Assembly: GCF_000802385.1 (NCBI RefSeq)
Contig: NZ_JTDN01000003.1
Location: 1-64,000 of the forward strand
Length of the DNA stretch: 64,000 bases
Direction: 5' to 3'
Origin: Croceibacterium mercuriale
Lineage (GTDB): Bacteria; Pseudomonadota; Alphaproteobacteria; Sphingomonadales; Sphingomonadaceae
This document shows, in pieces, positions 6,994 through 55,612 of the stretch (positions are counted from its first letter, which is position 1; every line of letters begins with the position of its first letter). A program made the position numbers and the translations under genes. The notes under the pieces are model-generated. The model was not told the DNA's origin. It was given only the letters and a program-made list of their open reading frames with translations, and made no database searches.

Positions 6994-7634
6994 GCCGCAT
7001 TCCTGACCTTTTGGGCCGACGGGCTTGCCGGCTTGTCGACGATCGTCGCGCCGAGCGCCTCCACCAAGCGCGGCGTTTCCATGGCGTTCCACCGGCCTTT
7101 GTCGGCCAGCATCCACTGTTCGGCCTCCGCGTAGGAAGCGTGGCCCAGGTGATCGACCCCGGTGACTTCGCGCGCGACGAACCCGATCATGCCATCGGGC
7201 ACCCACTGCGCCCAATCGCCCCACGCCGAGCAGGCAATGACCTGACCGATCACCTGCTGGTACTTGGCGCGCTCCTTCAGCACATAGGACTGGTTCTCGG
7301 GCACAGCCTCGCCGGTGAACGCCGTGTAGCGATCGGGATGCCAGCAGCGCACCGTATCGCGCGCGAGCTGCAGCTGATCCGGCGTGCCCATCGTGGTCCC
7401 GGCGAACTCGGGCTCGAAGGCGAGCACCGGCAGGGCCCAGTTGCAATCCTCCTCGTAGCTGCGGCTGTCGAGCCGAAGCTTTTCAGGCATTGCGGCCTGC
7501 CGCTCATCCGAGAGGATCATGCCGCCATGACTGGCGGTAGTGACGAACCACGCTCCGGGGATCACCTCGGTGGCGGTCTGGACGCGGCCCCAGATGGATT
7601 CAGCGGGGCGCGGTGTGTTGGCGAAATGCTGCAT
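6990..7634 (-). CDS. DUF7007 domain protein
   Basis: A 214-residue protein. The N-terminal part, SIWGRVQTATEVIPGAWFVTTASHGGMILSDERQAAMP, matches the DUF7007 layout (promoter-proximal WG..Q, then a SHGG strand, then Leu-Ser followed by an Arg near residue 45). The second half contains RCWHPDRYTAFTGE and ends in a basic tail. Function is unknown; the family is frequent on alphaproteobacterial plasmids. It is the first gene of a minus-strand pair with the DpdA-like gene (4-nt overlap), which suggests a shared role. A ribosome site (AGGAGATCC) lies just upstream. Confidence 0.7.
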   Translation of the reverse strand: MQHFANTPRPAESIWGRVQTATEVIPGAWFVTTASHGGMILSDERQAAMPEKLRLDSRSYEEDCNWALPVLAFEPEFAGTTMGTPDQLQLARDTVRCWHPDRYTAFTGEAVPENQSYVLKERAKYQQVIGQVIACSAWGDWAQWVPDGMIGFVAREVTGVDHLGHASYAEAEQWMLADKGRWNAMETPRLVEALGATIVDKPASPSAQKVRNAA

Positions 7635-7657
7635 GACGGATCTCCTGTTCCGTCACG

Positions 7658-7680
7658 TTCCCTCCCCCTCCTCTTTGCCG
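7658..7680 (-). repeat. polypurine intergenic tract, copy 4
   Basis: TTCCCTCCCCCTCCTCTTTG lies about 25-45 nt upstream of the DUF7007 start. It is nearly identical to the tracts at 15.45 and 19.05 kb. Confidence 0.6.
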
Positions 7681-7754
7681 CCCTGTCGCGGCTTTGCGGA
7701 ACGAGCGGCTTCTGGCACGGCTTGTACCAGCAAGAGCAATCACAGGTCATTCAA

Positions 7755-8009
7755 GTGGACGAGACACCTCCGCCCCTCGCTGAGCGAATGCAGCGCGCGC
7801 TCATCGAGCATCTGGTCCGATCGGGATTGCTGGACGGCGATGATATCGCGGACATCTGCGAGCGACTGAAGCGCAGCGGCGATGATGCGGCCGCACGCGA
7901 GTTCGCCGCGTTGATGCTGCGCGGAATGAAGCCCGATCAATCGGAGCGGGCTGCTGATCGCGCTCGCGAGCGGTTTCATGCGATCGAGGGTGGCAAAACC
8001 TCCGATTGA
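7755..8009 (+). CDS. small hypothetical protein (84 aa)
   Basis: A short plus-strand gene divergent from the DUF7007 gene. It could start at GTG 7755 or at ATG 7788 (MQRALIEHLVRSGLLDGDDIADI). The product is helical and charged and ends with ADRARERFHAIEGGKTSD, and codon use looks normal for the backbone. The Tn3-type cassette is inserted 7 bp after its stop codon, so the gene itself appears intact. There is no recognised family and no strong ribosome site. Confidence 0.45.
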   Translation: MDETPPPLAERMQRALIEHLVRSGLLDGDDIADICERLKRSGDDAAAREFAALMLRGMKPDQSERAADRARERFHAIEGGKTSD

Positions 8010-8016
8010 TCTACAG

Positions 8017-8054
8017 GGGGACATCGCAGATTTTGTGCGTAAACGTACGCTAAG
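8017..8054 (+). repeat. left 38-bp Tn3-type terminal inverted repeat
   Basis: It starts GGGGACATCGCAGATTTTGT and ends GTACGCTAAG. The outer end faces left, immediately after the TACAG duplication. Confidence 0.9.
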
Positions 8055-8218
8055 CCGTGTGCGTCCGCGCATCGCCGTCCAGCGGCGCGGCCCGCGTTCA
8101 ACGGCCGCTTTCGAGATGCACCGGAGACCGCTCCAATGGCGAGGTAGGGTGGAGAGCGGACAGGCGGCTTTGCGGCGCCAGGTAGTAGAAAGCGGCCGTT
8201 TGTTGGCCTAGCTGGGTC

Positions 8219-8905
8219 ATGCACATTCCGGATAGAACCACCGCGCTCCGATTTATCGGGCACGGAGCGCAGCTGTATCGTAGCGCCGTCTCTCAAGATT
8301 TGAGCAGCTTGCACGCCTTGTTCGGCTCCCTGCCGAGGGAGCACGCAGGCATCCGCATCAGCGGCATGGAGGCATTGCGGCATTTCCTCAGAGCGGACGG
8401 ATCGATCGGCTTGATCGCAGCGGGCGTGCTCGGCTCTGCAAGTCGTCCTGTCCGAGCAATCCTGTTCGACAAGACGGCCGAGACAAACTGGTCGCTGGCG
8501 TGGCATCAGGATCGCACGATCTGCGTTCAGAAGAAGGTCGATGTCCACGGCTTCGGGCCATGGACGATGAAGGCCGGCATGCAGCACGTCGCTCCGCCCT
8601 TCCATCTGTTGACCCGTATGGTCACGTTGCGGGTTCATCTGGACGACGTCCCGGCCACAAACGCTCCGCTCTTGATCGCACCCGGTTCTCACACATGCGG
8701 GCGTATCCCTGTCGATAAGATCGAGGAGGTGGTTAAACGATGCGGAACTGAGGTTTGCATCGCTGAAGCAGGCGACGTGTGGCTCTATGCGACCCCAATC
8801 CTGCATGCGTCGGAGGCGGCTGAGGCACCTACACACCGGCGCGTTCTACAACTCGACTTCGCGGCTGAAGACCTTCCAAATGGCTTGGAGTGGCTCGGGG
8901 TCTGA
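8219..8905 (+). CDS. phytanoyl-CoA dioxygenase (PhyH) family protein
   Basis: A 228-residue Fe(II)/2-oxoglutarate-dependent oxygenase of the PhyH family. The metal triad is visible as H96-x-D98 in WHQDR and H196 in PILHAS. The 2-oxoglutarate-binding Arg is in HRRVLQLDF (about residue 207), and a PGSH motif at 155-158 is also typical. The family hydroxylates small organic substrates in the cytoplasm; the substrate here is unknown. It is the first cargo gene of the cassette and starts 164 bp inside the left end. The upstream DNA is full of GC-rich repeats, so promoter placement is unclear. Confidence 0.8.
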   Translation: MHIPDRTTALRFIGHGAQLYRSAVSQDLSSLHALFGSLPREHAGIRISGMEALRHFLRADGSIGLIAAGVLGSASRPVRAILFDKTAETNWSLAWHQDRTICVQKKVDVHGFGPWTMKAGMQHVAPPFHLLTRMVTLRVHLDDVPATNAPLLIAPGSHTCGRIPVDKIEEVVKRCGTEVCIAEAGDVWLYATPILHASEAAEAPTHRRVLQLDFAAEDLPNGLEWLGV

Positions 8906-8910
8906 CGGCT

Positions 8911-9090
8911 GCTTTCAGGCACGATGCGGGATCGCCTAAATGACTGAGTTGGGGCGAAAGCGGAACGGCTGCTTTTAGGTCGACGGAGCGGAAAGCGGAC
9001 GCCAAGCCGGCGTCTAACGTAGTGTCCGCTTTACCAGGGCTTGGGCCAATAGCTGCCAGACAGCTAGCGCCCCATTGCCGACATTTCGAT
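8911..9090. repeat. dispersed GC-rich extragenic repeats (cassette copy A)
   Basis: A cluster of short imperfect units such as GAAAGCGGAACGGCTGCTTT, GCGGAAAGCGGACGCC, GTGTCCGCTTTACC and AGCTAGCGCCCCATTGCCGA. The AAAGCGG and CCGCTTT halves are complementary and could form hairpins. The same vocabulary recurs at 9.7, 11.5, 50.4, 54.6-55.6 and 58.9 kb. Confidence 0.65.
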
Positions 9091-9176
9091 CACCCGGGGG
9101 TGACCGCGGCCTATGGGCCGGTTAGGTGAGAAGGCCAGTGGCGATCGGAAGTCGATCAGCCTCAAGGAGAGCTCGC

Positions 9177-9575
9177 ATGCTTTTTCACACCATGGTCGGA
9201 TCGAACGACATTGAACGGTCGAAGCGCTTCTACGACACGGTGCTCGCCACTTTGGGGGCAGGCGAGGGGGCGCGGAACATCGCCGACAGCGGTCATACGC
9301 GGCTGATCTATAATAATGGCAACGGAACCAACTTCATCGTCAGCCAGCCGATCAACGACGAGCCGGCAAGCGTCGCCAACGGCAGCACCGTCGCCTTTTC
9401 GTGCAACTCGCCTGAACAGGTGAAGCAGCTTCATGATACCGCGGTTGCCAACGGTGGCACCTCGATCGAAGCCCCGCCCGGCCCGCGCAATACGGCATCG
9501 CTGGGGACGGTTGAACTTGCCTATTTTCGCGACCCTGACGGCAACAAACTATGCGGAATCCATTTTCCGGCCTGA
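9177..9575 (+). CDS. VOC (glyoxalase/bleomycin-resistance fold) family protein
   Basis: A 132-residue protein with the paired beta-alpha-beta-beta-beta layout of the vicinal-oxygen-chelate superfamily. It begins MLFHTMVGSNDIERSKRFYD, has the central GNGTNFIVSQP strand, and ends VELAYFRDPDGNKLCGIHFPA, where FRDPDGN is the signature turn. Members include glyoxalases, dioxygenases and drug-binding proteins; the substrate is unknown. The start at 9177 has AAGGAGA 6 nt upstream, better than an earlier in-frame ATG. It is the second cargo gene of the cassette. Confidence 0.85.
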   Translation: MLFHTMVGSNDIERSKRFYDTVLATLGAGEGARNIADSGHTRLIYNNGNGTNFIVSQPINDEPASVANGSTVAFSCNSPEQVKQLHDTAVANGGTSIEAPPGPRNTASLGTVELAYFRDPDGNKLCGIHFPA

Positions 9576-9714
9576 TCTGTCCGACATGAGTCCGCTTCTG
9601 AGTCTAGCGGACCCGTATCATGCGATCGCGCGAATGTCCGCCTCCCACCCACTTCCAGCCATCCCAATCCTAGCGAAACCCGCTCAATAGCAGAAGAGCG
9701 GCTTTGCCCTCGGG

Positions 9715-9765
9715 CTGGACAGAACCTGCCAGGCGGCTAGCGCCCCATTGCGGACAATTAGAGTG
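9715..9765. repeat. dispersed extragenic repeat (cassette copy B)
   Basis: It contains GCCAGGCGGCTAGCGCCCCA followed by TTGCGGACAAT, a close copy of the unit at 9053-9083. Confidence 0.6.
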
Positions 9766-9992
9766 CCCCTTTTGGCTCCTCACTCCCGCCATACGTTCAT
9801 CACAGCCTTACTGCCGCTTTCTGACGCTCTGATTGAGGCGGTGGACGACGAGGCCATTGCGGCCCGGTAGCGTTCTACTAAGGGGGCGCAGAGAGCTGCA
9901 TTGGTCAAGCTCAGGTTTACGCAGGGTTCCCAGCTGTTTAAGGTAAACGAAGCTGACAAGAACCCCCGCTACTTGAAGAGTAAGGAAGTGCG

Positions 9993-10727
9993 ATGCAGCG
10001 CCGATTGCTATCAATGCTTGCTTTCGCCGCGGCCAGCGCCGTTGCGCTGCCAGTACAGGCACAGATGTGGTTCGACACGGCCGCCATCATGCAACCGGTC
10101 GTGCTGAATCCGTGTCCTGGCGCACGATGTCCGGGAGCAGGCAGCAACGGCGACACAGGCGACGCCGCGACCCTCGCCTCCGATCCAGCGGGCTCGGCGA
10201 CGGCGGCTGTCGACCTGACCTACGCTCCGTCTATCGAGCGGCGCCGTGCCAATCTTGCGGAGTTTGTTGCCAGAACACGAGCCGACAATCCCGAGAGCGC
10301 GACGCAGATGGAAGAGCTTTTCGCCTCTACCGACGTGATCGGACAGGTCGGTTCCGCACTTGCACCCTATGGCTATTCGGTGGCTGACCTGGGCGACGCC
10401 TATGCCTTCTGGTGGATGACCGCATGGGAAGGAACACGAGGTTTCAACCGTGCTTTCAGCCAAAGTGAAATGCAGGCTGTTCAGGAGCAAGCTCATCACG
10501 CGCTCGCCAGCACCTCGCAGATTGCTCAATCTACGGATGCGCAGAAGCAGCAAATGGCTGAGGCCCTGTGGATCCAGGCATCCATGATCGATGGCCTAGT
10601 CGACATGGCCGAGCAACAGCCCGGGCTCATGTCGCAGCTGCAAGCGGCCATCAGGCAGGGCGCCTTGGCATCAGGCGTCAATCTGGATGCCATGCAGCTG
10701 ACCCCTCGCGGGTTCACCAGCCGATAG
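9993..10727 (+). CDS. secreted protein, DUF6683-like
   Basis: A 244-residue protein with a clear Sec signal peptide (MQRRLLSMLAFAAASAVALPVQAQ, cleavage likely after AQA near residue 23). The mature part has a Gly/Cys-containing linker (NPCPGARCPGAG) and a helical domain containing YAPSIERRRANLAEFVARTR, GYSVADLGDAYAFWWMTAWE and a C-terminal Gln-rich helical region. The WWMTAWE segment resembles that of DUF6683 secreted proteins. Function is unknown. It is the third cargo gene; the ribosome site AAGGAAG lies 7-13 nt upstream of the ATG. Confidence 0.65.
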   Translation: MQRRLLSMLAFAAASAVALPVQAQMWFDTAAIMQPVVLNPCPGARCPGAGSNGDTGDAATLASDPAGSATAAVDLTYAPSIERRRANLAEFVARTRADNPESATQMEELFASTDVIGQVGSALAPYGYSVADLGDAYAFWWMTAWEGTRGFNRAFSQSEMQAVQEQAHHALASTSQIAQSTDAQKQQMAEALWIQASMIDGLVDMAEQQPGLMSQLQAAIRQGALASGVNLDAMQLTPRGFTSR

Positions 10728-11044
10728 ACAGCGTAGCCTTCCTCCGGAGGAAAAAACGCGCGCAGCCTCGCAATGGGCTGCGAGGTGCAAGCCAAGGACG
10801 ACTTCCGGCCGCGACAGGAATGGCCGCTCTCCGGCAGCAGCGACCCGGAAGCAGCCCTTCCGCTCCCCACCCACCTCCAGTCACGCTGGGGCAAGTGAAA
10901 CTCGCCCGAAAGCTGAATTGCCACTTTGCTCCCTTCCAGGCAGGCACTGTCGATCGGGGAGCCTCCGAGTACGTCGAGACATCGCTGTTGCGGCTACCCT
11001 GAAAGCGAACGTAGGTTGACGCCAGCTCTGCTAAAGAGGTCGGT
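10728..11044. other. 317-bp spacer between cargo genes
   Basis: No gene is seen. A 14-bp palindrome (TTCCTCCGGAGGAA, about 10739-10752) followed by A residues sits just after the DUF6683-like gene, with a second stem CCTCGCA/TGCGAGG near 10777-10796. Either could end transcription of the upstream gene. Confidence 0.4.
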
Positions 11045-11467
11045 ATGAATGATCGGGATGTTTGTGTCGGCAAGTGCCATTGCGGAGCGGTGCGCTTCGA
11101 AGCGACATTGACCGACGGCTTCAACACCATCCGCCGGTGCACCTGCTCATATTGCAGAATGCGAGGAGCCGTGGCCGTCTCCGCGGAAATGGGTGGGGTG
11201 AGGATTGTACAAGGTGAAGAGGTTCTGACCCGCTATCAGTTTAACACCGGCGCAGCGAACCACTTCTTTTGCTCACGCTGTGGTATCTACACGCATCATC
11301 AACGTCGCTCTAATCAAAACCAGTTTGGGGTGAACGTCGCATGCTTGGAGGGGATCAGCCCATTCGACTTCTTGGTTGTACCTGTCGAAGACGGTGTAGA
11401 GCATCCGAATGATAACGGCGGGCTGACCCGGCTAGCAGGTACGCTCCGGTTTATACCTGCTGAGTAG
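11045..11467 (+). CDS. GFA family (zinc-binding) protein
   Basis: A 140-residue protein of the GFA fold (glutathione-dependent formaldehyde-activating enzyme-like, Mss4 fold). Zinc ligands are visible as GKCHCGAVRFEA (residues 10-21), CTCSYCRMRG (about 33-42) and FFCSRCGIYTHHQ (about 77-89). Family members bind zinc; most have no proven substrate despite the name. It is the fourth and last cargo gene of the cassette. AGAGGTCGGT precedes the ATG as a weak ribosome site. Confidence 0.85.
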   Translation: MNDRDVCVGKCHCGAVRFEATLTDGFNTIRRCTCSYCRMRGAVAVSAEMGGVRIVQGEEVLTRYQFNTGAANHFFCSRCGIYTHHQRRSNQNQFGVNVACLEGISPFDFLVVPVEDGVEHPNDNGGLTRLAGTLRFIPAE

Positions 11468-11504
11468 CACTTTGCTGACAAACTACAGCTTTTGGACGTA
11501 CCAG

Positions 11505-11590
11505 GCCGAAAGCGGACCGGCAGCTTGCCACCCAAACTTCGCCATAAAGTCGGCTTCTGACGCGACCTGAAAGCGGTCGTTCCATACGCG
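11505..11590. repeat. dispersed extragenic repeats (cassette copy C)
   Basis: It contains GAAAGCGGACCGGCAGCTTG, AAGTCGGCTTCTGACGCGAC and TGAAAGCGGTCGTTCC, units of the same family as at 8.9 kb and 50-60 kb. Confidence 0.6.
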
Positions 11591-11694
11591 GGGTGCTGCT
11601 TGAGGTCGTGGCGAAAGGCTTACCGTGAATCTGTGTCCGGGGCCGCTACGGTGCGTGAACTGCCGTTGCTTCGGTCGCTCCGCAAACGATGTGG

Positions 11695-11732
11695 CTTAGC
11701 GTACGTTTACGCACAGATTCTGCGATGTCCCC
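11695..11732 (-). repeat. right 38-bp Tn3-type terminal inverted repeat
   Basis: It starts CTTAGCGTACG (inner side) and ends GCGATGTCCCC (outer side), directly followed by TACAG. It matches the left end except for two bases. Confidence 0.9.
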
Positions 11733-11833
11733 TACAGGGACCGGCGGGTTCAGCCGATCGTCGCCTTTTGCGAGAGAGACCAGGACCGGAGCCTTTCGCC
11801 CGGCCTCTCGTTAGTGGCGGGAAAGGTAAACAC

Positions 11834-12022
11834 ATGCTTATCAAGCTCGCCGCGCTCGCGGCCGCCGGTTACGCTGGCTATAAATACTTCTATGAGGACA
11901 AAGGGAGCAGTGCGCCTCGCGTGTCCTCTCGTCCCTCACCCAACCCGCGTGCTGTGGCTGGTGGCCCGATCAGTGGCGATGCGCAGCTGATCCATCCCGG
12001 TGAGGAACTGCCCAGCGGCTGA
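11834..12022 (+). CDS. small membrane-anchored hypothetical protein (62 aa)
   Basis: The product begins MLIKLAALAAAGYAGYKYFYEDKG, a single short hydrophobic helix, followed by a Ser/Pro-rich tail ending HPGEELPSG. It probably sits in the inner membrane with a short soluble tail. GGGAAAGG lies about 7 nt upstream of the chosen ATG. The longer upstream frame was rejected because it runs back through the Tn3-type repeat. The gene is plasmid backbone, about 100 bp outside the cassette. Confidence 0.65.
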   Translation: MLIKLAALAAAGYAGYKYFYEDKGSSAPRVSSRPSPNPRAVAGGPISGDAQLIHPGEELPSG

Positions 12023-13411: not shown

Positions 13412-13918
13412 ATGGTTCAGTCAGTTGCCATTGGCCAGTTCGATCTCGACGTAACGCTACGTGATGCAGCCCTCGACCCTGCCATAAGCCCGACCCGTCG
13501 GATGATCGCCAACGCCTCGATCGGGGTGGAAACCTGCGACGCGTTCTACTCGACGTGCGAGCTGCTCGAAGCGTTGGAGGCGGTGCTCGAGGTCGGTGGC
13601 CCCAAGAACAAGGCGAAGCTCGCCACCGTGTTGTCGAACAACTGCGACGATTTCCAGCGCTGCCTGTATTACTGCCTCGCCGGTCGCGGCATCGTGCAGA
13701 TGCTGGAGGATCTTGAGTGGCTCGCCGGGATCCTGAAGGCGCGCGGCCAGATCGAAGGCGAGGAGATCCGCAAGCACGGCCGTCAGCCGCTGCCGCTGGT
13801 AAACCCCTATGTCGCAGCGGCGCCGGATGCCCTGCTGGTGTCGGCCTCGGCCGACTTCCAGGAGGGCCCGTCCTGGTGGTTCGATCCCAAGCTGCCCGGG
13901 ATCATCACCGAGGACTGA
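13412..13918 (+). CDS. hypothetical protein (168 aa)
   Basis: A soluble helical protein, MVQSVAIGQFDLDVTLRDAALDP..., with a Cys-rich middle (NNCDDFQRCLYYCLAGRG, about residues 87-104) and a C-terminal SWWFDPKLPGIITED. No family is recognised. AAAGGAGC precedes the ATG at good spacing. It is one of the few backbone genes on the plus strand in this block, divergent from the DUF1173-like gene and convergent with the small gene at 13.9 kb. Confidence 0.65.
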   Translation: MVQSVAIGQFDLDVTLRDAALDPAISPTRRMIANASIGVETCDAFYSTCELLEALEAVLEVGGPKNKAKLATVLSNNCDDFQRCLYYCLAGRGIVQMLEDLEWLAGILKARGQIEGEEIRKHGRQPLPLVNPYVAAAPDALLVSASADFQEGPSWWFDPKLPGIITED

Positions 13919-13920
13919 GG

Positions 13921-14121
13921 CTAGAGCATCACCACTTCAAGTTCGACGTCCTCGTCGGTGGTCTCGTCGCTGGGCATGACGCGGTAGGGCTGCAGCTCAC
14001 ACCGCGTCCTGACCACGGCCTGCGGGCCGAAGCCGTCTTCGCACATCCGCTCGGCAACTCGGTCGGCATTATCGCGGCCACACAGGCGCCGGCGGAGGGG
14101 TGACAGGGGCTCGGTGTCCAT
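13921..14121 (-). CDS. small hypothetical protein (66 aa)
   Basis: MDTEPLSPLRRRLCGRDNADRVAERMCEDGFGPQAVVRT... ends in an acidic tail (DETTDEDVELEVV). The start at 14121 is preferred because GGAAGGA lies 8 nt upstream; an earlier in-frame ATG at 14142 is possible. It follows the DUF6927 gene by about 20 nt and is probably in the same transcript. No known family. Confidence 0.5.
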   Translation of the reverse strand: MDTEPLSPLRRRLCGRDNADRVAERMCEDGFGPQAVVRTRCELQPYRVMPSDETTDEDVELEVVML

Positions 14122-14143
14122 GGCTTCGGTCCTTCCCATCATC

Positions 14144-14758
14144 TCAGCCGAAGAACGTCTTCGGCGGTTTGCGCTCGGGCACGATCTCGAAGGCGAGCTT
14201 CATCAGATTGCCCACGCGGTAGCGACCATAGCCGTTCAGCGATGTCAGCACCATCCTGCGCCCTTCCTTCCGCACCCGGAACTCGCTAATTTTTGAGCCG
14301 TCGGTGAACTCGATCGGATCGGCAAAGCGGATCATCGCGCCATCATCCAGCTTGCGTCCGGCGAGCCGCAGATTGCGGTAGCAGCGGTTGCGCCAGTTGA
14401 GCTTGTATGGATTGTCGCTCGATGACAGCAAGGCCAGCACGCTGGCCGGACACTCGGCCTCGCATGGTCCCATGCTTTCCGACATATCCTTATACCCGAA
14501 AATGAAGCCGTCGGCCGCGTTGGGATTCCACCGCACCAGGCAGACAATCGCGGTCACTTCGAGCACCTCGCCGGCCCCGGTGTAGCTTTCCACAGCGGCG
14601 TAATAGGTCTTGCCCGACCAGACACTCTTGAGAACCCGCAGGCCATTGATCTCCTGATCGTCGGCCTGGCGCGGCTCATAGGTGAGCTGGGTATCCAGGT
14701 AGGCCTTCGGTGTCTTGTGTCCGCCCATCGAACTGGAAGGCATGGAGAGCCATCCCAT
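14144..14758 (-). CDS. DUF6927 domain protein
   Basis: A 204-residue protein with the features of DUF6927: it starts MGWLSMPSSSMGGHKTPKAYLDTQLTYE, then VYYAAVE-like KTYYAAVESYTGAG, VTAIVCLVRWNPNAADGFIFGYKDMSESMGP with PCEAECPASVLALL, and a C-terminal RIRFADPIEFTDG-like strand. The family is widespread on alphaproteobacterial plasmids and has no known function. The start has AAAGGA at good spacing. It lies 14 nt after the stop of the upstream gene. Confidence 0.75.
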   Translation of the reverse strand: MGWLSMPSSSMGGHKTPKAYLDTQLTYEPRQADDQEINGLRVLKSVWSGKTYYAAVESYTGAGEVLEVTAIVCLVRWNPNAADGFIFGYKDMSESMGPCEAECPASVLALLSSSDNPYKLNWRNRCYRNLRLAGRKLDDGAMIRFADPIEFTDGSKISEFRVRKEGRRMVLTSLNGYGRYRVGNLMKLAFEIVPERKPPKTFFG

Positions 14759-31145: not shown

Positions 31146-32178
31146 CTTCGTAGCGTAGCACAGCGCGCTTAGATTAGGACCCGCAAAGGCGGGTATGAAT
31201 GCCACGATCTTTAGGGCAGGTGATAGCCTTGAGTTGGGCCCTCTCGCAACGCCAGTCGCGGACCATTCGCTGGCACGGGTATGGTGGGACGAGCGGCTGT
31301 ACGCCTGACCAACGGCTTCGGGTCGCTGGTGGGGCAGCGGGTCTTCTCCTTGGGGAATTTGGGTGTGACCCCGATCCGGTTGGAACACGGCCTGCCCTGC
31401 GTCACTTAACAGGGGCGGCCCTCCTGTCCGCGGGAGTTGGAATTGGCCAAGGACAATAAAGCGGCGACGGGCATCATCCAACGGTGGGTGGCGGCGTGGG
31501 ATGGCCGGGTGTTGTTGCTGACCTGACGGATAAAGCGCGACAAGCCCGGCAGCATGGAATGGTGATGTTCGTCGTTCAGAGCAGCAATTGAAAGATACGT
31601 TGCCTTCGAGGCGCTTCTTCTCATCGCCGCGCCAACTAAATCTAATTATCGACATGTGGCGGCCGTAGCAGACTGCAATGGCAGTTGCGGGCACGACACC
31701 AAGGTACCGGCACCACGCTCAGGATTGATGCGCCAGGAACCGTGCTTGAATGCATAAGCGAGAAGTAGGGGGGCATCGCAGAATCTGTGCGTAAACGTAC
31801 GCTCTCATGCCCGCCATCGGGGACGTTGGCCAAGTTCACTCCCTCGCCGGTTGCGAGACCAGCAGTTGTATGGAGCGTGGCGGGTGTGCTGCGGCCGCCT
31901 GATCGACGACGATTGATCACGCCTTCACCCGCGGGTTGGTTACCGCACTAGCCGTCGCTGGCCTGCCCTCCGTCTAAGTTTGGGCGTCGGACGAACCTGT
32001 CCGATCGTACGTCGTGGATTGCCCATCACAGTTGGGTGCCCGCGGCACGCCGGCCAAGGCTCTGCAGTTGATGCGCCCGCGCCTCCCTTGGTAACAACAG
32101 CCCATCAAATAGCAGACGAGTAGAGAGCTTCTCGGCAAGCGCATTGACGCTTCGAACCCTACAGGCCATTATCTCGCG
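31146..32178. other. gene-poor stretch with decayed DNA and a lone Tn3-type end
   Basis: No credible gene is seen. Several short frames on both strands look like broken remnants. The only clear element is a Tn3-type terminal repeat copy at 31769-31806, with no visible partner. Confidence 0.5.
31769..31806 (+). repeat. solitary Tn3-type terminal repeat (third copy)
   Basis: It starts GGGGGCATCGCAGAATCTGT and then GCGTAAACGTACGCT, matching the cassette's right end except for a base after the G-run and the last three bases. The outer end faces left. No inverted partner is visible to its right, so it may be a remnant of another element of the same family. Confidence 0.7.
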
Positions 32179-54004: not shown

Positions 54005-54472
54005 TTACATCCACCGACGAACCCGTTTCCTATAAGCGTCGAAACTGGCGCCGAAGCGGCGGCCTAGATATGCTTCCTCCCGTGCGATGACCAACCGATC
54101 GAGGACTGCGACCAGCGGAAGCAGAAGCAAGCCTGCCGTTGGGCTTTTCAACGCCAGCGCGATGCCGGAATAGACAATGGTCATCCCAAGATACATCGGG
54201 TTGCGCGTGAAGCGGTAGACGCCGGACTGAGCCAACTCTGACGAGGGCTGCCAAGGCTCCGGCCTTGTGCCGACTTTGCGAAACAACCTGAGGGCGAGTC
54301 CAATAAAAGTCAGGCCTCCAGCGATCAGCACCGCGCCAACAATCAGCAGGAGCGTGGGCGTCGTGGGCCAAACGTAGAGCAGCCCGTCGAGCCACAGCCC
54401 GGCAACCAAGGTTCCTGCCACGATCAGGGGTGGCGGGACGAAGATCCGGGGCGAGTCCATAGACGACACCAT
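54005..54472 (-). CDS. isoprenylcysteine methyltransferase (ICMT)-like membrane protein
   Basis: A 155-residue protein with four to five membrane spans and the family motif GVYRFTRNPMYLGMTIVYSGIAL near the middle, followed by EEAYLGRRFGASFDAYRKRVRRW. The RNPMYLG and EE...Y....R pattern binds SAM in ICMT/PEMT-type bacterial methyltransferases. The lipid or small-molecule substrate is unknown. It is probably a separate transcript. ATG 54460 is an alternative start. Confidence 0.8.
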   Translation of the reverse strand: MVSSMDSPRIFVPPPLIVAGTLVAGLWLDGLLYVWPTTPTLLLIVGAVLIAGGLTFIGLALRLFRKVGTRPEPWQPSSELAQSGVYRFTRNPMYLGMTIVYSGIALALKSPTAGLLLLPLVAVLDRLVIAREEAYLGRRFGASFDAYRKRVRRWM

Positions 54473-54544: not shown

Positions 54545-54710
54545 GCTATAAGCGTCTGCCCTCCCGAAAGCAGCCTGTCCGCTCACCACCCACTACCAGC
54601 CATGTGGAGCTGAGCGGAGCTCACCCGGAAGCGGAACAGCGGCTTTGCCCGGATCCTGACCAGGACCGGCCGTTCGGCTCCCGCCCCCATTGCGGACATG
54701 GAAGCTACCT
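54545..54710. repeat. dispersed GC-rich extragenic repeats (block copy E)
   Basis: It contains CCCGAAAGCAGCCTGTCCGC, GGAAGCGGAACAGCGGCTTT and GCCCCCATTGCGGACATGGA, the chromosome-type repeat units. Confidence 0.6.
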
Positions 54711-55087: not shown

Positions 55088-55612
55088 CTACATCGTCGGC
55101 CCTTGTGTTTTCGGAAATAACCAGCCCAACTCGGCGCTCGCCGCTTTCAGCCCCAGTGCGACAACAAGGGGTGCAGCCATATCAAGGCTGAGAGACGCGA
55201 ACTTAAACGCATCCCATGCCAGCGGGCGGCAGTATCGCCAGACAAGCTCAAATCCGACGAAAGCGCCTGCGACAACAGCTATGTCCAGCCATGGAAATGC
55301 TGCTGCCCTTAGCGAACGCCTAATTACGAGTGCCACGACGATGAGGAACCCAGCGAAGAGAGCGAGACTGAGAACATCCTGCACAACGGGAGCGAGTTGG
55401 CCCGCATAGAAACCTGACCCGCCGTAACCCGTTGCCGTCAACCACAATGCGAAGGCGACGTAGAAGGCGACGGTCGAGGGTTCCGGGCGAGAGCTCACAA
55501 GCGCAGCATCATCCAATCTGGGAATATTCGCAACGGCTAGAGCAGCATTCTTGGCTGTTTCCGAACGTCCGCTTCGGCGCCACTTCCGGAAAGCGGCCGT
55601 TCCGCTTTCCAC
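55088..55612 (-). CDS. integral membrane protein (up to 174 aa)
   Basis: The conserved-looking part has about four transmembrane helices (TVAFYVAFALWLTATGYGG, VLSLALFAGFLIVVALVI, WLDIAVVAGAFVGFELVW, LDMAAPLVVALGLKAAS). The first 35-40 codons of the frame lie inside a dispersed repeat, so the true start is probably GTG 55498 or nearby. No family recognised. Confidence 0.5.
   Translation of the reverse strand: MESGTAAFRKWRRSGRSETAKNAALAVANIPRLDDAALVSSRPEPSTVAFYVAFALWLTATGYGGSGFYAGQLAPVVQDVLSLALFAGFLIVVALVIRRSLRAAAFPWLDIAVVAGAFVGFELVWRYCRPLAWDAFKFASLSLDMAAPLVVALGLKAASAELGWLFPKTQGPTM

Follow-up and report, generated by a model that had tools for sequence, protein, structure and literature searches.

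A transposase-less Tn3-type element in Croceibacterium mercuriale and the mobile single-gene units it probably carries

We analyzed a 64,000-nt stretch of Croceibacterium mercuriale DNA (contig NZ_JTDN01000003.1, positions 1 to 64,000 of the forward strand; hereafter, the window) and focus on a 3.7-kb element at positions 8017-11732, which has the ends of a Tn3-family transposon and carries four genes. We are confident that the outer layer of this element is a non-autonomous Tn3-family mobile insertion cassette. Judging from comparisons of sequence, the unit around its VOC gene and, by extension, the other cargo genes are probably mobile single-gene units. With slightly more reserve, we favor the combined reading, a Tn3-family mobile insertion cassette carrying an integron-like array of such units. 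The mobility of the VOC unit is well supported; beyond it, we infer mobilization of the element in trans, site-specific recombination at the repeats that separate the genes, and membership of the other three genes in the same kind of unit.

Ends, cargo, and mobilization of the outer element

The element lies on contig C4 (171,065 bp) and has a G+C content of 60%, compared with 65-66% in its flanks and 62% for C4 overall, in line with a foreign origin of the cargo. Its termini are 38-bp inverted repeats at 8017-8054 (+) and 11695-11732 (-), which are identical at 36 of 38 positions (38 of 40 with two extra bases). Directly outside both ends stands TACAG (8012-8016 and 11733-11737, read directly), a perfect 5-bp target duplication. 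These two ends are the only matches in the whole window at up to three mismatches, and 100 dinucleotide shuffles yielded no match. The Tn3-type end pattern GGGG...ACGCTAAG with inverted ends of about 38 bp, the 5-bp duplication, and passenger genes without a transposase characterize Tn3-family mobile insertion cassettes, and the element has all of them.

The cargo consists of four intact open genes on the + strand, each above its Pfam gathering score: a PhyH-family (phytanoyl-CoA dioxygenase-like) gene of 228 aa (8219-8905; 33.1 bits, cut-off 22), a VOC/glyoxalase-superfamily gene of 132 aa from the ATG at 9177 (9177-9575; 38 bits, cut-off 20.6), a DUF6683 gene of 244 aa (9993-10727; 45.4 bits, cut-off 23.6), whose protein has a signal-peptide-like N-terminus by eye, and a GFA-family gene of 140 aa (11045-11467; 44.7 bits, cut-off 24.3). 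A profile search for the Tn3 transposase (PF01526; control positive in two of 14 named genomes) found none in the entire 3.48-Mb genome. Thus, the analysis agrees with the original prediction of a transposase-less Tn3-type element with these four genes, two mismatches between its ends, and insertion with a 5-bp duplication.

The 38-bp end is rare. At up to three mismatches, the full end has no further match in the genome, and a scan of C4 to 13 mismatches gave two more only, both outside the element. Among 396 genomes of the order, it occurs in just two, this one and one other (G178), and exact-end scans of genome contig and viral contig collections gave no matches. With the end as query, blastn against 72,556 plasmid records returned 17 of them, six of which were inspected. 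Among them, Sphingopyxis granuli plasmid pRW412b has a complete Tn3 transposon (L008:12001-17033) whose 38-bp ends are identical and flanked on either side by TGATT; it encodes a 989-aa TnpA (DDE_Tnp_Tn3, 489.9 bits) and a resolvase. Its ends agree with the left end of our element at 33 of 38 positions and with the right end at 35 of 38 (the latter compared by eye); therefore, a plausible helper transposase exists, as had been anticipated.

We propose that a related transposon of the pRW412b kind would have provided TnpA in trans, that this TnpA would have recognized both 38-bp ends, and that replicative transposition would have inserted the element and produced the TACAG duplication. Because nothing in the element resembles the res site of the transposons compared, the cointegrate presumably would have been resolved by homologous recombination or by a resolvase in trans. 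A different history, in which a full Tn3 transposon lost tnpA and tnpR by deletion and has not moved since, would fit the two differences between the ends. Yet alignment to the pRW412b transposon revealed nothing shared beyond the ends, with no remnant of tnpA, tnpR, or res of that kind, and the target duplication is intact; we consider such decay quite unlikely.

Returning to the mobile insertion cassette, the perfect duplication is in keeping with the suggestion that insertion was recent, but with two differences between the 38-bp ends and no empty target site found, recency is unproven. The original prediction had looked to an empty TACAG site in a related plasmid for confirmation. The joined flanks had no match in the 72,556 plasmid records, and the search of the 396 genomes returned just the two halves of this locus itself and three short, weak matches, which counts against the insertion we propose.

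Spacer repeats and the VOC unit

Five spacers of the element belong to one palindromic sphingomonad repeat family that is rare elsewhere on C4: repeat 1, directly inside the left end (8068-8203), repeat 2 (8951-9085, +), repeat 3 (9632-9758, +), the diverged repeat 4 (10819-10973), and repeat 5 (11472-11613). Every spacer has an alignment to one or more of the others at E <1e-5 (63-77% identity over 60-139 bases), and three of the 10 pairs are weak (E above 0.1). We also searched C4 with a repeat model trained on eight sites from three genomes (G337, G479, and G012), which gave five matches at E ≤0.05. Four of these fall within the 3.7-kb element: two in repeat 2 (8955-9001, E 0.016; 9016-9085, E 0.013), one in repeat 3 (E 9.8e-5, the best match on the 171-kb contig), and one in repeat 5 (11472-11555, E 0.0098). 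The in-element matches thus cover three of the five spacers, two of them sharing one spacer, with E values near 0.01 for three of the four; repeat 4 aligns to other spacers and was missed by the model. Finding four of five matches in the element has a binomial P of about 1e-6, or about 4e-5 if the shared spacer is counted once. Of the 13 occurrences of the 9-mer AAAGCGGAC in the genome (24 for the reversed control), three are inside the element and none is elsewhere on C4. Rfam gave no matches on 7900-11850 up to E 5.

The fifth model match, at 54576-54699, is a full-length spacer repeat outside the element, between a gene at 54005-54472 (membrane methyltransferase-like by eye) and an open reading frame (ORF) at 55088-55612.

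These repeated spacers, together with a third, truncated Tn3-type end in the window (described below), add to what had been noted before on this DNA. The idea of the four genes as one detoxification or catabolic set is not supported: the spacers separate the genes, the VOC gene recurs alone, and an array in genome G479 contains other small enzymes.

The VOC gene unit (9077-9649, +) is a discrete block also found by itself in other genomes. When the DNA of the whole element was compared with 397 genomes of the family, 159 of them contained matches, and the VOC unit (~580 bp) has a match of >500 bp at 82-97% identity in at least 25 of the 397, spread over 15 genera; this count is a lower bound, with two candidates scored per genome and the C. 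mercuriale genome entered once, through its second copy on contig C2. That copy (C2:1020497-1021075, L055) is 97% identical over 579 bp. It adjoins a three-gene set that looks IS66-type by eye.

We aligned 15 copies of the VOC unit with their flanks, namely those of the window, C2, one S. parapaucimobilis plasmid, and 12 other genome copies. Conservation stays at ~0.9 or above through most of the unit (edges viewed in full, the middle in part) and drops from ~0.9 to ~0.3-0.5 within some 40-60 columns on each side, with homology among the copies ending at repeat motifs. On the left, the edge reads GCGGACATTC or a variant of it, and in most rows a variant of GCTAACGACCCA stands before it; on the right, the edge reads GAATGTCCGCTTTCCACCC or a variant. 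These unit ends form short inverted repeats. The left-flank motif scores 8.6 of 12, compared with 6.0 in shuffles (two rows mis-anchored, one of 15 dropped). In a 972-kb all-against-all comparison (pairs from different genomes, 300-4000 bp, ≥78% identity), shared VOC blocks do not exceed 622 bp even at identities of up to 98.6% (G108 versus G337, 582 bp), and the loci that hold them range from 52 to 68% G+C.

Joining the ends of the VOC unit would produce one hairpin core, AATGTCCGC-loop-GCGGACATT. Since the unit starts and ends at the repeat, an excised VOC circle would carry one repeat core. We picture the cargo as an array in which copies of the palindromic repeat alternate with small gene units that may move singly. 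One VOC-unit match comes from MT836346.1 (9163-9719; 85% over 557 bp), which is labelled Bacteriophage sp. and derives from human faecal samples; it may represent a mobile unit carried by a phage, or the contig may be mislabelled.

The core-site pattern GCTANCGMCCCANTNGCGGACATT, allowing up to three mismatches, was matched in all 14 hand-picked genomes (1 to 22 matches each; a single match in five of them, C. mercuriale included), and the reversed control gave none in 13 genomes and 1+1 in G143. Full sites are ~125 bp long with a core at either end, and they form same-orientation runs, in arrays that include short genes, in G337, G479, and G108 (four of five sites in locus L101, where the odd one is weak, and five of five in both L140 and L066); four sites of L101 and one of L140 were among those used to train the model. 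In G479, the intervals between sites carry short genes: an unassigned one, AHSA1, VOC, and then VOC and cupin together. The G337 region that holds the site array also contains five copies of a 238-aa gene (L101:5661-6377, 7541-8257, 13757-14473, 19628 to L102:344, and L102:2660-3376), interleaved with gene ends that look RHS-like by eye. These five ORFs were considered as recombinases and dropped, as they appear IS6-type transposase-like by eye.

Could the cargo simply be plain chromosomal sphingomonad DNA caught by two Tn3 ends, with the spacers as extragenic palindromes like repetitive extragenic palindromic (REP) sequences near gene ends, and the VOC gene spread by homologous recombination between dispersed repeats? 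Several cores lie right after apparent stop codons (by eye), and the co-occurrence of VOC units with the recombinase discussed below is weak. In G293, the cores are dispersed over both strands (8 forward, 14 reverse), a scatter more in keeping with dispersed repeats than with arrays. However, the cores are imperfect and offer ~30 bp of homology, which is short for RecA exchange; one gene reaching 98.6% identity among loci of 52-68% G+C, without any common flank, calls for an active mechanism; and the sites occur in same-orientation runs. We regard this alternative as possible but unlikely.

A candidate recombinase and the case against the units

A candidate enzyme for the single-gene units is a ~210-aa Phage_integrase-family protein, a tyrosine recombinase, present in 139 of the 397 family genomes. 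The gene for it is found within ~780-bp blocks whose sharp edges fall at motifs similar to those of the VOC unit (e.g., 782 bp, 92%). Across 30 recombinase loci (105 kb), there are 16 site-like matches (≤7 mismatches) in 13 loci, compared with two in 203 kb of control loci and none after shuffling. A broken copy of the gene adjoins the VOC unit in G452. Assigning this protein to the units is a guess, which we hold tentatively, and catalysis by it is the weakest step in our account.

In its widest form, which we advance with similar diffidence, the Sphingomonadaceae would have an unrecognized integron-like system of single-gene cassettes (VOC, GFA, PhyH, AHSA1, cupin, and others), each with a ~31-bp hairpin core. 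The cassettes might be excised and reinserted at dispersed cores and arrays by the solo ~210-aa tyrosine recombinase, itself a cassette, and Tn3 ends might capture arrays onto plasmids, as in the window and on the Sphingopyxis plasmid described below.

Alternatively, a DDE or HUH transposase could move the units through their inverted GCGGACATTC/GAATGTCCGC ends, in the manner of a miniature inverted-repeat transposable element or a REP-associated tyrosine transposase (RAYT), with no tyrosine recombinase involved. The short inverted repeats at the unit ends agree with such a mechanism; however, no consistent target duplication is visible by eye in the 15-copy alignment, and a tyrosine recombinase gene has similar borders at some loci. 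Transposition of this kind seems to us rather improbable.

A number of observations weigh against mobile single-gene units moved by the recombinase. On the side of the enzyme, 17 of the 30 recombinase loci have no site-like match, and the control loci, chosen from different regions and in part from different genomes, were not genome-matched. The recombinase is present in 12 of the 25 genomes with VOC units and in 139 of 397 overall, which is no clear association, and the family search found none in the C. mercuriale genome. On the side of the sites, the right-flank motif is little above shuffles (5.7 versus 4.65 of 9, with the same rows affected as on the left), and the only strict core match in the C. 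mercuriale genome is at 54677, outside the element. In addition, one VOC gene and the cupin gene of the G479 array are oriented opposite to the sites, and the dispersed, two-stranded cores of G293 belong here as well. For PhyH and GFA, a single close copy of each from elsewhere was compared, with edges that match in part: the PhyH copy in G455 is an apparent remnant whose right edge is at a core-like motif, and at the right edge of the GFA copy in G386 no clear core is seen. For DUF6683, the sole match among those listed is at 68%.

The G308 locus is a further case. There, the VOC unit lies between genes taken by eye for yaaA and mutL, and the insertion is 1.8 kb and includes yaaA besides the VOC unit. 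Among seven relatives from the genus, none has a clean empty VOC site; in two, just 17 and 19 bp separate the flanking genes and contain no core, in three, the gap is filled by 1.0-2.6 kb of other DNA, and the last two were uninformative. As far as sequence can tell, this locus shows gene turnover at the place and not precise insertion into a core.

Relation to known elements and other Tn3-type ends

Tn3-type mobile insertion cassettes have Tn3 ends and passengers, lack transposition enzymes, and depend on a cognate transposase in trans, according to PMC6304161. That paper describes Xanthomonas cassettes with passengers other than resistance or degradation genes, and the previous claim that such cassettes are usually empty or carry genes of those two kinds is thus too narrow. 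The TnXax1-type cassettes of Xanthomonas resemble our element, as far as described there, in having Tn3 repeats around passengers, no transposition enzymes, and a need for transposase in trans; unlike them, the window cargo consists of repeat-separated short metabolic or secreted-protein genes in a sphingomonad, one of which is probably mobile alone.

Tn3-derived inverted-repeat miniature elements (TIMEs) and TIME-bounded composites (TIME-COMPs), including the integron mobilisation unit (IMU), are likewise non-autonomous, with Tn3 ends, 5-bp duplications, and cargo; the IMU-bounded case carries blaGES-5 (PMC4133298, PMC13367494). In a TIME-COMP, each border is formed by a complete miniature element with two ends. 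Our element is not a TIME-COMP because it has a single end at each border, and, unlike TIMEs and TIME-COMPs, it has no res-like stretch by comparison with the plasmid transposons examined. Going by the name of the unit, the IMU-bounded blaGES-5 presumably sits in an integron.

Integrons and clusters of attC sites lacking integron integrases (CALINs) hold small gene units between imperfect palindromes, and an integron cassette circle carries one attC; the attC core motifs are RYYYAAC/GTTRRRY, and a CALIN requires no integrase. The cargo is similar in its small units, imperfect palindromes of ~125 bp, and one site per unit circle, and differs in core sequence and in having sites that are also dispersed singly. 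The single orientation of its short genes and the relatedness of its palindrome-rich spacers to ~125-bp sites elsewhere would be expected of an ordinary CALIN within a Tn3 element. Nevertheless, no IntI-type integrase exceeded the TIGR02249 cut-off in any of 24 genomes, C. mercuriale included, and the unit borders do not coincide with R''/R' attC cores (by eye, without an attC model). An ordinary integron fragment is therefore a very improbable source of the cargo.

REP sequences and bacterial interspersed mosaic elements (BIMEs), which have RAYT transposases, are short dispersed hairpins near gene ends, as are the window repeats; unlike REPs and BIMEs, the window repeats delimit a unit of one gene that is found again at unrelated places. 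In the literature on sphingomonad integrons, REP repeats, integron-like recombinases, RAYT, and sphingomonad Tn3 elements, no description of such units appeared among the matches listed, with most subscription journals outside the coverage.

With the outer element, the Tn3 mobile insertion cassettes gain a sphingomonad example. If the single-gene units are real, pollutant-degrading sphingomonads would have a second gene-capture system besides integrons, based on a small recombinase and a simple site, and this would help explain the spread of single metabolic genes among sphingomonads.

A plasmid of Sphingopyxis sp. 113P3 has a Tn3-type end (35/38) and ~130 bp like the left interior of our element (168 aligned bases at 80% in total); bases 8017-8179 are ~80% identical to that end and interior. 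Homology stops at the first repeat, after which the plasmid has a 457-aa gene without a Pfam family in the place of PhyH, then a repeat, GFA, and a repeat. No partner Tn3 end was seen within the 100 kb read. From this single comparison, the two loci look like one Tn3 end with exchangeable cassettes. Hypothetical proteins of equal length adjoin the Tn3 ends of 113P3 and FARSPH; a similarity between them was considered and rejected (E 0.63).

The window also contains an orphan third end of the same kind, truncated, at 31769-31803 (+), whose 35 bases are the same as the outermost 35 of the 113P3 end, with divergence beyond them. It opens one of three related stretches on C4 (31769-32093 in the window, C4:84192-84523, and C4:98737-98953; 84-96% alike). 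The first two start with a Tn3-type end, at 6 and 12 mismatches to the left end of the element, and the outer end of the third is missing; the three are perhaps remnants of another Tn3-type transposon.

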